Assembly: GCA_025354985.1 (NCBI GenBank)
Contig: JANXLU010000053.1
Span: 62,001-126,000, forward strand
Length of the DNA: 64,000 nt
Direction: 5' to 3'
From: Chloroflexota bacterium
GTDB taxonomy: Bacteria; Chloroflexota; Anaerolineae; J036; Brachytrichaceae
Both the position numbers and the translations under genes were made by a program. Under the pieces are notes generated by a model. The model ran no database searches, was not told the origin of the DNA, and was given only the letters and a program-made list of their open reading frames with translations. Of the stretch, positions 4,626 to 8,544 are shown piece by piece (the first letter of the stretch is position 1; every line of letters begins with the position of its first letter).

Positions 4626-4693
4626 CATTTTGTGCCACGCATATACCCATATCGTGGCGAGATAGCCAAACGAATCAAAAGGAGAAATTTTTA

Positions 4694-6463
4694 ATGACCA
4701 GCAAGAATCGTTTGTTTGGGCCCGTGGCGTTTGCCGCGGTATCCAGCATGGTATTGGCGGCTTGTGCGCCGGCCGCGCCGCCACCGGCGCCGACCGCTGC
4801 CCCCGCCCCAACAGCGGCACCCGCGCCGACAGCAGCCCCGGCTCCCACCAAGGCGCCAGACCCGACCAAGGCACCCGAGCCCACAAAGGCTCCCGCACCC
4901 ACCCAGGCGCCGGCGTTCAAGGGCGACAAGATGGCCGTCCCAGCATGCAAGGATACGGGAGAGATGAAATCCATCGAGGCCGTGGATGCACTCACGGTGA
5001 AGTTCAGCCTGTGCCAGCCCGACCCTTCCTTCCCATACAAGGTTACCGGCAACTCTTTCGGCATTTTGCAGAAGGATGATCTGGCAAAGACCGGCGGTGA
5101 TGCCAAGAAGATTAATGAAAATCCTGTCGGAACCGGCCCCTTCAAGATGAAGGAATGGAAGCGTGGCGACTCGATCAACCTGGACGCAAACACTGCATGG
5201 TGGGGCGGAGCCAACCAAAACAAGGGTCTGGTCATCCGCTGGACGAAGGAGGCTTCGCAAGCGCTGATTGAGTTGCGCTCTGGTAATGCCGATGGCATCG
5301 AAAAAGTTGCCTCTGAGGACTTCGACGCAATCAAGAAAGACAGCAAGATCAAGCTGGTGCCGGTTGAAGCGCTAAACATTCTTTATGTCGGTTTAAATAA
5401 TACGAAGGCCCCGTTTGACAATGAGAAGGTGCGCCAAGCCTTTGCCATGGTGATTGATCGCAAGAAGATTGTGGATGATTACTATCCTGCGGGGTCGCAG
5501 GTTGCACAGAGCTTCGTGCCGGATTCATTCAAACCCGGTTTCTCGCCCAACGTCAAGTGGTATGACGTGGACTTGAAGGCGGCCAAGGCCTTGCTTGATG
5601 AAGCCAAGTTTGATTACACCAAGGAAGTGCCTTTGAGCTACCGCGAAGTTGTGCGTGTGTATCTGCCCAGCCCGGGCAAGGTCGCTCAGGAGATTCAGGC
5701 TCAGATGAAGGCGATTGGCGTCAAGATCAAGCTGGAGCCCAAGGAGAGCGGGACATTCTTGAAGAGCGCGTCGTCTGGCAACGAGACCATGGTTTTGTTG
5801 GGGTGGGGCGCGGATTATCCGGATGCCACCAATTTCTATGACACCCACGTCGGCCCAACCGTCAAGACGTTTGGCAAGCCATTTGACGACATCGTTGCTC
5901 AGCTCAAGATTGGCGATACCAACAGTGACTTCGCCAAGCGCCAGGCCGCCTATGACAAGACCAACGAACTGATCAAGCAACACGTGCCCTTGATCCCGGT
6001 CGCGCATGGTGTGTCCGCCCAGGCATTTGGCGCGGGTGTTACCGGCGCGCACGCCAACCCGCTCACCCCGAATGAATACTCCAAGATGAAGGGTGCAAAG
6101 GACAACTTTGTCTACGTGCAAAGCGGCGAGCCTATTAGCCTTGACTGCGCTGATGAGAGCGATGGCGAGACATTCAACGCGTGCGGTCAGATTTTCGAAA
6201 CTTTGATGGGATTCAAGCCGGGCACGATTGAGCTTGCTCCTGCACTCGCCACTGAATATGCCGGCAACCCGGACGCCACCGAGTGGACCTTTAAACTTCG
6301 CCCAAATGTGAAGTTCCATAACGGCGCCACGATGGACGCCAATGATGTGGTGCTGAGCTTCGTGCGACAGTGGGATGCCGCCAATCCTTATCACAAGGGT
6401 GACACGGGTGACTTCCAGTATTTCAACGACTACTTTGGTGACTTCCTAAACGCCAAAAAATAA
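4694..6463 (+). CDS. circularly permuted peptide/nickel-type ABC substrate-binding lipoprotein
   Basis: This 589-residue protein belongs to the DppA/OppA-like family 5 solute-binding proteins. A lipoprotein signal ends at Cys24 (VLAAC), followed by a Pro/Ala/Thr linker to about residue 75. The family's segments occur out of order. Residues 91-476 hold the middle and C-terminal parts (KSIEAVDALTVKF, NPVGTGPFKMKEWKRGD, ALNILYVGLNNTKAPFDNEKVRQAF, LLGWGADYPDATNF, QHVPLIPVAHG). Residues 477-589 then hold what is normally the N-terminus (GEPISLDCADESDGETFN, IFETLMGFKPGT, WTFKLRPNVKFHNGA, YFNDYFGDFLNAKK). A strong AAAAGGAG ribosome site precedes the ATG. It captures an oligopeptide or similar solute outside the membrane for the permeases downstream. 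Confidence 0.9.
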   Translation: MTSKNRLFGPVAFAAVSSMVLAACAPAAPPPAPTAAPAPTAAPAPTAAPAPTKAPDPTKAPEPTKAPAPTQAPAFKGDKMAVPACKDTGEMKSIEAVDALTVKFSLCQPDPSFPYKVTGNSFGILQKDDLAKTGGDAKKINENPVGTGPFKMKEWKRGDSINLDANTAWWGGANQNKGLVIRWTKEASQALIELRSGNADGIEKVASEDFDAIKKDSKIKLVPVEALNILYVGLNNTKAPFDNEKVRQAFAMVIDRKKIVDDYYPAGSQVAQSFVPDSFKPGFSPNVKWYDVDLKAAKALLDEAKFDYTKEVPLSYREVVRVYLPSPGKVAQEIQAQMKAIGVKIKLEPKESGTFLKSASSGNETMVLLGWGADYPDATNFYDTHVGPTVKTFGKPFDDIVAQLKIGDTNSDFAKRQAAYDKTNELIKQHVPLIPVAHGVSAQAFGAGVTGAHANPLTPNEYSKMKGAKDNFVYVQSGEPISLDCADESDGETFNACGQIFETLMGFKPGTIELAPALATEYAGNPDATEWTFKLRPNVKFHNGATMDANDVVLSFVRQWDAANPYHKGDTGDFQYFNDYFGDFLNAKK

Positions 6464-6473
6464 TTTGTGACCT

Positions 6474-6512
6474 ATCAAAGTGAGGGGTGGCACTGTCACC
6501 CCCCACTTTGAT
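6474..6512 (+). terminator. intercistronic hairpin between binding protein and permease
   Basis: ATCAAAGTG (6474-6482) pairs perfectly with CACTTTGAT (6504-6512). One A-C mismatch follows, then GGGGTG (6484-6489) pairs with CACCCC (6497-6502) around a 7-base loop. The tail is TATTTT. It begins 11 bases after the binding-protein stop and ends 8 bases before the permease ATG. It could act as a leaky terminator or protect the upstream mRNA, keeping binding protein in excess over permease. Confidence 0.7.
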
Positions 6513-6520
6513 TATTTTCA

Positions 6521-7597
6521 ATGGCTCAATATATTGTCAAGAGACTGATTCTATTGGTGTTTGTCGTCATCGGCGTGCTCGTGGTCACCTTTGGGTTGGC
6601 GCGCGCCATTCCGGGTGATCCATGCACGTCCATGCTGGGCGAGAAGGCAACACCTGAGAAATGTGAGGCATTCAAACAGCGCTTTGGCCTGAATGACTCG
6701 ACACCCGTGCAATTTGTTCGCTATGTCACCAATATTGCCCGGGGTGATTTTGGCCAATCCATTCGTGATTCCCGTGATGTGACCGATATCATTGCCGAGC
6801 GCCTTCCCCTGACAATTGAATTGACCATTACCGCATCGTTTATCTCCGCTATTTCGGGTGTACTTCTGGGCATTGTCTCGTCCGTTCGACATAATGGCCC
6901 GGTTGACGTTGTAGCAATGATTTTCGCCAACGTCGGTGTGAGCATGCCGATTTTCTGGCTTGGACTACTGTTGGCTTATTTGTTCGCGATAACCCTTGGG
7001 GGCACGTCGTTTCAGCTCCCGCCTTCCGCCCGAATCTCTCCGGGCGCCGATCTCCCAAATTTGCTCAAGCTTTGGCACATGGAGGACGCCACCGGTGCAT
7101 CGCGTTTCTTTACCGAGTTATTGTCCAACTCCTATTTGCTAAACGCGGCCATGCAGGGCAAGTGGGACGTGTTTTGGGATGTGATCAAGCACTTGATCCT
7201 GCCATCGGTTGCGGTTGCCACCGTCTCCGTTTCCATCATTGCGCGGATGACCCGGGGCGCGATGCTCGATGTGTTTACCCAGGACTACATTCGCGTGGCG
7301 CGTGCCAAGGGGTTGGGCGAGCGTCTGGTGGTGATGAAGCACGCTTTCCGCAATGCGCTTGTTCCGATTGTGACCGTTGTAGGGCTGCAGTTTGGCGGGT
7401 TGCTATCCGGAGCAGTGCTTACCGAAACTACGTTTAGCCTTGCAGGTATGGGCACCAAATTGGTGGAATCCATCGAAGCACGCGATTATCCAGTCGTGCA
7501 GGGGATTGTGATCGTAGTATCGCTGTTGCTCGTTTTTGTAAACCTGCTTGTGGACCTGTCCTACGCCTACTTAAATCCACGCATCCGCGTGCAATAG
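6521..7597 (+). CDS. ABC transporter permease, DppB/OppB type
   Basis: This 358-residue integral membrane protein starts with the family's N-terminal helix and loop (YIVKRLILLVFVVIGVLVVTFGLARAIPGDPC). It carries the binding-protein-dependent transport motif around YIRVARAKGLGERLVVMKHAFRNALVPIVTVVG, where the EAA-like loop contacts the ATPase. It ends with the typical AYLNPRIRV. An extra stretch of about 50 residues around 170-225 (HMEDATGASRFFTELLSNSYL) enlarges an extracellular loop compared with shorter family members. It pairs with the DppC-type permease that starts 2 bases after its stop. No ATPase gene follows. Confidence 0.92.
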   Translation: MAQYIVKRLILLVFVVIGVLVVTFGLARAIPGDPCTSMLGEKATPEKCEAFKQRFGLNDSTPVQFVRYVTNIARGDFGQSIRDSRDVTDIIAERLPLTIELTITASFISAISGVLLGIVSSVRHNGPVDVVAMIFANVGVSMPIFWLGLLLAYLFAITLGGTSFQLPPSARISPGADLPNLLKLWHMEDATGASRFFTELLSNSYLLNAAMQGKWDVFWDVIKHLILPSVAVATVSVSIIARMTRGAMLDVFTQDYIRVARAKGLGERLVVMKHAFRNALVPIVTVVGLQFGGLLSGAVLTETTFSLAGMGTKLVESIEARDYPVVQGIVIVVSLLLVFVNLLVDLSYAYLNPRIRVQ

Positions 7598-7599
7598 AC

Positions 7600-8544
7600 A
7601 TGGCCACAACTACTGCTCTGCCTGTATCAACCGTTCGTGCGCCGGTGTTGCGGGGCGGCACCACCCAGTCGCCTTTTCGTCGCACGATGCACCGCCTGCT
7701 GCGTCATCGCTCCGCCCAGATCGGGATTGCGCTGATGGCAATGTTGCTCTTTATCGCCATTTTTGCCGACGTGCTGGCGCCGTATGCCTTTGATGAGCAA
7801 CTTCGCACCCCGGGCACCAAACCGCGCCTCGAACCCTGCGTCCACTTGTTGGGTTGCGAAGCCGACAAGCCGCAGTTTGTGATGGGGCTTGATTCCAATC
7901 GTCGGGATGTGCTTTCCCGCATTTTGTTCGGCTCCCGCCTGTCGCTAAGCATTGGTTTTATTACAACCGGTGTCGCGGTATTGTTTGGCACGGTTCTGGG
8001 CGCGATTGCAGGCTATGTCAGTGGCTGGTCAGACACGGCCATCATGCGCACGATGGATATTTTTCAGGCCTTTCCATCGTTGCTGCTGGCAATCGCCATT
8101 GTCTCAGTGCTCGGTTCCGGGCTGGTAAATACCTTGATCGCCGTGGCGATCGTCGATATACCGACGTATGCGCGTATCGCGCGAGCGAGCGTGCTGGGCG
8201 TCAAAGAATTGGAATATGTCAACGCGTCAAAGGCTCTGGGCGCCTCGCCCATGCGTATTCTGTTTACGCGGCTGTTGCCAAATTCGCTCACCCCATTGAT
8301 TGTTGCAGGCACCCTGGGGATTGGCACGACCATTCTGTCCGCAGCCGGACTGTCATTTCTTGGTTTGGGGGCGCAGCCGCCGCTGTCTGAGTGGGGTCTG
8401 ATGCTCGGCGCAGAACGCGCCAGCGTCTTCTCCGCACCGCACCTGATGGTGTTTGCCGGCGTTGCCATTATGTTTACCGTGCTGGCTTTCAACCTGCTGG
8501 GCGACGGCCTGCGAGATGCGCTTGACCCTCGGCGCAAGGCATAA
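7600..8544 (+). CDS. ABC transporter permease, DppC/OppC type
   Basis: This 314-residue membrane protein is the DppC partner. It has a cytoplasmic N-terminus, one helix (IGIALMAMLLFIAIFADVLAPY), the extracellular segment FVMGLDSNRRDVLSRILFGSRLSL, and the EAA loop YARIARASVLGVKELEYVNASKALGASPMRILFTRLLPN, then LSAAGLSFLGLGAQPPLSEWGLML. It ends at DGLRDALDPR, as is usual for the family. It follows dppB-type by 2 bases and is clearly co-transcribed with it. The DppD/DppF-type ATPases needed to drive transport are not encoded next to it or elsewhere in the window. Confidence 0.93.
   Translation: MATTTALPVSTVRAPVLRGGTTQSPFRRTMHRLLRHRSAQIGIALMAMLLFIAIFADVLAPYAFDEQLRTPGTKPRLEPCVHLLGCEADKPQFVMGLDSNRRDVLSRILFGSRLSLSIGFITTGVAVLFGTVLGAIAGYVSGWSDTAIMRTMDIFQAFPSLLLAIAIVSVLGSGLVNTLIAVAIVDIPTYARIARASVLGVKELEYVNASKALGASPMRILFTRLLPNSLTPLIVAGTLGIGTTILSAAGLSFLGLGAQPPLSEWGLMLGAERASVFSAPHLMVFAGVAIMFTVLAFNLLGDGLRDALDPRRKA

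Follow-up and report, generated by a model that had tools for sequence, protein, structure and literature searches.

The window analyzed here, a stretch of 64,000 nucleotides from a member of the Chloroflexota, contains an open reading frame (ORF) on the forward strand (positions 4694 to 6463) predicted to encode a 589-amino-acid lipoprotein in which the two sequence blocks of a DppA-like family 5 (cluster C) solute-binding protein occur in swapped order. It is almost certain that this protein is a true and fixed circular permutation. The whole account, in which a permuted DppA-like lipoprotein retains the flytrap fold, is tethered through domain II, and takes part in peptide uptake with an OppBC permease, was given a probability of about 0.9.

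Gene structure and order of the sequence blocks

The ORF is preceded by a ribosome-binding site (AGGAG, 4680 to 4684), with the ATG 9 nt further on, and ends in a TAA stop codon (6461 to 6463). Judged from sequence only, residues 1 to 24 (4694 to 4765) form a signal peptide with the lipobox LAAC (residues 21 to 24) and a lipid-carrying Cys24, by which the product is classed as a predicted bacterial lipoprotein. An Ala/Pro/Thr-rich tether (residues 25 to 79; 4766 to 4930) leads to the two-block family 5 module. The initial annotation had placed the start at 4964; since the signal peptide, lipobox, and AGGAG all belong to an ORF beginning at 4694, the gene starts there, and 4964 stands only as the start of the permuted module. 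Its observation that a signal peptide, ribosome site, and stop codon lie in frame was correct.

Pfam family PF00496 matched the ORF as two separate stretches (269 bits versus a cutoff of 32.4), and a phmmer search of the PDB matched 84 sequences, the top ones of which aligned as two pieces in swapped order. Residues 93 to 465 of the query aligned with residues 154 to 532 of DppA (5f1q, precursor numbering) and residues 471 to 583 with residues 30 to 150. In HbpA2 (3tpa), residues 16 to 123 were matched by query residues 478 to 578 and residues 131 to 502 by query residues 91 to 457. E values for the individual pieces of the best PDB matches ranged from 1e-12 to 1e-45, so the swapped alignment is well past chance. 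The C-block, normally running from about DppA residue 154 to the C terminus, thus comes first (residues 80 to 465; 4931 to 6088; Pfam, phmmer, and structure alignment), and the N-block, normally running from the mature DppA N terminus to about precursor residue 150, comes last (residues 471 to 589; 6104 to 6460; Pfam and phmmer). The old termini are linked by a joint of about 5 residues (466 to 470; 6089 to 6103), flanked in the 5f1q alignment by residue 465, which pairs with 532, and residue 471, which pairs with 30.

The new termini fall in a short stretch after DppA precursor residue 150, and both blocks are complete in the alignment to DppA, with no part of the family 5 fold lost. The permutation proposed in the initial annotation was borne out by these alignments, in which DppA showed swapped rather than collinear order, and the residues that it named were also right: MKSIEAVD begins at nucleotide 4964, the chain ends in FLNAKK, and the old termini are joined at about residues 465 to 471. 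The protein belongs to family 5 (PF00496, cluster C) by the profile cutoff, and the linear order of N-block before C-block is absent. With the NCBIfam equivalog model for DppA (NF043070), it scored 213.5 bits, below the cutoff of 1005.

Predicted fold

The permuted chain was modeled with AlphaFold2 from a folding alignment whose rows were linear relatives cut in two at the permutation site, none of them permuted. Alignments A1, A3, and A4 were discarded because MAFFT misplaced the linear fragments, and A5 was picked from among 499 subsets by the agreement of fragment placement with pairwise alignment. The model reached a pLDDT of 83.3 and a pTM of 0.82, with a poor stretch over the last 23 residues (pLDDT of about 34). 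With VIA-align, model residues 1 to 391 were superposed on DppA 1dpe (Z of 26.8, 383 residues) and on 8z1z (Z of 26.3, rmsd of 2.4). The N-block had no partner in this sequential structure alignment, in which it cannot appear, and was assigned to cluster C by its sequence alone; its DppA-like docking is therefore based on pTM, pLDDT, and sequence homology. These data suggest that the permuted chain would fold into the usual two-lobed flytrap. The permutation cut lies in domain II, given the domain limits of DppA, and the tether would then leave the protein via domain II instead of domain I.

Ligand residues and cysteine pairs

Conservation was assessed across a family set of 77 distinct permuted proteins, which have the order, cut, and joint in common down to about 30% identity. 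In DppA, R383 grips the carboxylate of the dipeptide and D436 its amino group, and both residues contact the DppB scoop loop (PMC12136057). The residues aligned with them in the permuted protein are Arg321 (5654 to 5656) and Asp374 (5813 to 5815), each 97% conserved in the family set. Short peptides are predicted, with moderate confidence, to be the ligand. A ligand of another kind known from family 5 proteins (a metal chelate, haem, or glutathione, for example) is possible but rather doubtful; HbpA/GbpA proteins rank with the best matches by sequence and by structure, but both of the residues that grip the dipeptide in DppA are conserved throughout nearly all of the permuted family.

Four pairs of cysteines covaried among the 77 proteins. 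Cys85 and Cys107 (4946 to 4948 and 5012 to 5014) were both present in 63 proteins, singly in 4, and both absent in 10; Cys485 and Cys497 (6146 to 6148 and 6182 to 6184), just past the joint, were both present in 67, singly in 2, and both absent in 8. Pairs at positions 277/284 (39 proteins) and 522/533 (25 proteins) were never represented by a single cysteine. The window protein contains only the 85/107 and 485/497 pairs. Joint gain and loss of this kind would fit disulfides formed outside the cytoplasm, and a bond between residues 85 and 107 would pin the new N terminus.

Partner permease and N-terminal fusions

Genes annotated as encoding an OppB/DppB-type permease (6521 to 7597, forward strand; profile match and alignment) with the scoop loop GEK and an OppC/DppC-type permease (7600 to 8544, forward strand; profile match) lie directly downstream of the binding-protein gene, as they do in most relatives' loci. 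A strong hairpin (6474 to 6512, forward strand; -26.3 kcal/mol, z of -6.55) separates the binding-protein gene from the permease genes. Such hairpins are common where a binding protein far outnumbers its permease. Nearly all OppB partners retained an acidic residue followed by a basic one in the scoop (GEK, GER, or GEH), with GQR found at locus L137. Most OppB partners of permuted proteins also carried a cysteine pair (GDPC...C) in the region of the scoop, which was absent from the three OppB partners of linear proteins examined and from a few whose permuted proteins branch deeply.

No ATPase gene was found near the window operon, which differs in this respect from a DppA-type operon with both ATPases. 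The source genome contains four oppD/oppF pairs, all on contigs other than that of the window. One of these contigs carries an orphan oppD/oppF-type pair (L165:4172-6268; G000:C85), around which no permease or family 5 gene was present in the 11 kb examined. That the pair on contig C85 powers the OppBC transporter is a guess.

Additional domains preceded the permuted module in many relatives. SBP_bac_3 was found in this position in about 17 of the 77 proteins and Peripla_BP_6 in four, with both in a relative at locus L131 and two tandem Peripla_BP_6 domains in one protein at locus L139; LysM preceded the module at L134 and L152. The L139 locus (L139:2993-13275; G181:C126) encodes, in order, a double SBP_bac_3 protein, a Peripla_BP_6-permuted fusion, a fusion of two Peripla_BP_6 domains to a permuted module, OppB, and OppC. 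At locus L154 (L154:1926-5165; G109:C1393), represented in one draft genome only, a single chain was annotated with Peptidase_C14, HEAT, and FHA domains, a hydrophobic transmembrane-like stretch, and the permuted module; it looks like a putative membrane receptor through which an external ligand would act on a caspase-like protease.

The permuted protein quite probably serves ABC-type uptake. As a lipoprotein on the outer face of the membrane, its flytrap would close on a short peptide, and the loaded protein would dock on OppBC and hand over short peptides with free ends to a channel powered by ATPases encoded elsewhere, for example, by the orphan oppDF pair on contig C85. A main role as a sensor or co-receptor is unlikely. 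The operon without an ATPase gene, the L154 relative with its caspase-like domain, FHA domain, and transmembrane stretch ahead of the module, and the further binding domains on other relatives would suit such a role, but oppB and oppC immediately follow the gene in most loci, OppB nearly always retains the scoop pair by which R383 and D436 are contacted in DppA, and an orphan oppDF pair is available elsewhere in the genome.

Origin of the permutation

For phylogenetic analysis, the blocks of the permuted proteins were restored to linear order, for alignment only, and compared with linear proteins. In the FastTree phylogeny, 76 of the 77 permuted proteins grouped together and the one from locus L151 lay outside, whereas IQ-TREE (30 permuted and 16 linear proteins) recovered all permuted proteins in one clade (support of 97/96), nested among linear DppA/HbpA-like proteins of Chloroflexota, Bacillota, and Alphaproteobacteria. 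A single clade nested among linear proteins points to one origin, and the permutation very probably arose once, in an ancestor common to many Chloroflexota.

At L151 (L151:4354-9604; G032:C178), an SBP_bac_3-linear family 5 fusion adjoins an SBP_bac_3-permuted fusion, and the two are 28% identical in the C-block. An independent permutation at this locus was considered and rejected, as IQ-TREE, unlike FastTree, placed the permuted protein inside the clade; a sister relationship to its linear neighbor was also rejected (approximately unbiased [AU] test, P = 0.0225, for a pair picked after the tree had been seen).

When each block was used alone to build a tree, both the C-block and the N-block fell with one and the same linear group, with poor resolution in the N-block tree. 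A chimera, in which the two blocks came from different binding-protein families and were fused, is very unlikely: the block trees differ in detail, and in that of the N-block two linear proteins fall among the permuted ones, but both blocks nest with the same DppA/HbpA-like group and together amount to precisely one whole protein, almost free of gaps and overlap. The permutation likely arose when a linear gene was duplicated in tandem and the copies were fused, after which the first N-block and the last C-block were lost. No fused N-C-N-C intermediate of this route was seen.

SBP_bac_3 or LysM domains occurred on several of the deepest branches of the IQ-TREE phylogeny, so the plain lipoprotein form, as in the window, may be derived. 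The distribution of SBP_bac_3 implied seven changes on the tree, a number that does not distinguish gains from losses.

Distribution

The alignment ran continuously across the joint in about 30 of the 60 relatives searched first. Of 298 genomes sampled within the class, 128 had a match at an E value of ≤1e-50, one of them to a truncated piece only, and permuted order was present as a single alignment in about 127, single-contig genomes included. About 37 of 301 genomes sampled across the phylum had the permuted order, 15 of which were from other Chloroflexota classes. The mention in the initial annotation of similarly ordered proteins in other Chloroflexota was thereby confirmed, as was its view that the order does not reflect a simple assembly break. 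A misjoining of two tandem or inverted linear genes during assembly or binning was rejected as having next to no probability. The draft state of the source genome, which is split into 98 contigs, would allow such an error, but the same order, cut, and joint recur in all 77 proteins, including those from one-contig genomes (among them G021, G036, G053, and G056), and the cysteine pairs and ligand residues are conserved.

The phyla sampled were Chloroflexota, Bacillota, and Pseudomonadota. None of 249 Bacillota genomes had the permuted order, and linear proteins alone were found there. No match at an E value of ≤1e-50 was obtained in 249 Pseudomonadota genomes, a weaker null result than that for Bacillota because linear relatives may also miss this threshold. 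The best 15 matches in plasmid records were all two-piece, i.e., linear, and the viral contigs searched with the permuted alignment yielded no relatives.

Relationship to known binding proteins

The permuted protein shares with E. coli DppA (1dpe, 1dpp, and 8z1z) the fold over the aligned 380 residues, the ligand residues, and the type of permease. It differs in its swapped blocks, in a lipoprotein anchor that would act via domain II, and in an operon without an ATPase gene. HbpA/GbpA of Haemophilus parasuis (3tpa and 3m8u) gave the best PDB sequence match (28 to 30% identity) and, unlike the permuted protein, has linear order.

A permuted type I binding protein, Tp0684 (TpMglB-2; "type Ic/cluster Bc"), has been described in Treponema pallidum (PMC4990184). 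Both it and the window protein are natural circular permutations of ABC transporter binding lipoproteins that have been kept in a clade. Tp0684 has the type I (cluster B) sugar-binding fold and a different cut, whereas the window protein belongs to cluster C by profile and model; the permuted part of Tp0684 has almost no sequence similarity to its linear parent, whereas both blocks of the window protein are clearly similar to theirs. In the open-access PMC literature, no published permuted family 5 or cluster C protein was found, in agreement with the initial annotation, which knew of none. Natural circular permutation of binding proteins seems to be rare, with Tp0684 the one precedent found. 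The initial annotation contained neither this precedent nor the single ancient origin, the conserved dipeptide residues, or the many fusions to other binding domains at the N terminus.

ABC importers of the GlnPQ type carry tandem binding domains in one chain, fused to the permease. Many relatives of the permuted protein likewise have more than one binding domain per chain, but they are free lipoproteins in which a permuted family 5 module is joined to domains from different SBP families. Tentatively, the permutation may have been selected for moving the start of the chain from domain I to domain II, so that further receptor domains could be added while the hinge and the contact with the permease stayed intact. 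The module might then be a receptor platform of Chloroflexota, bearing SBP_bac_3, Peripla_BP_6, LysM, or even a transmembrane caspase-FHA unit, with two or three binding domains serving or controlling one OppBC.

The protein described here represents a second, independent case of a permuted binding protein, now in family 5 (cluster C). Its blocks are still recognizable, its linear sister group is clear, and its single origin has left dozens of descendants, so that real sequences are available for studying why a permutation arises and what it costs; the family also offers a natural template for permuted biosensors. Multireceptor lipoproteins are hidden by existing family names, as Pfam and NCBIfam show them as nothing more than ordinary family 5 matches. 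The place of the lipid anchor on a binding protein can change while the ligand residues are retained.
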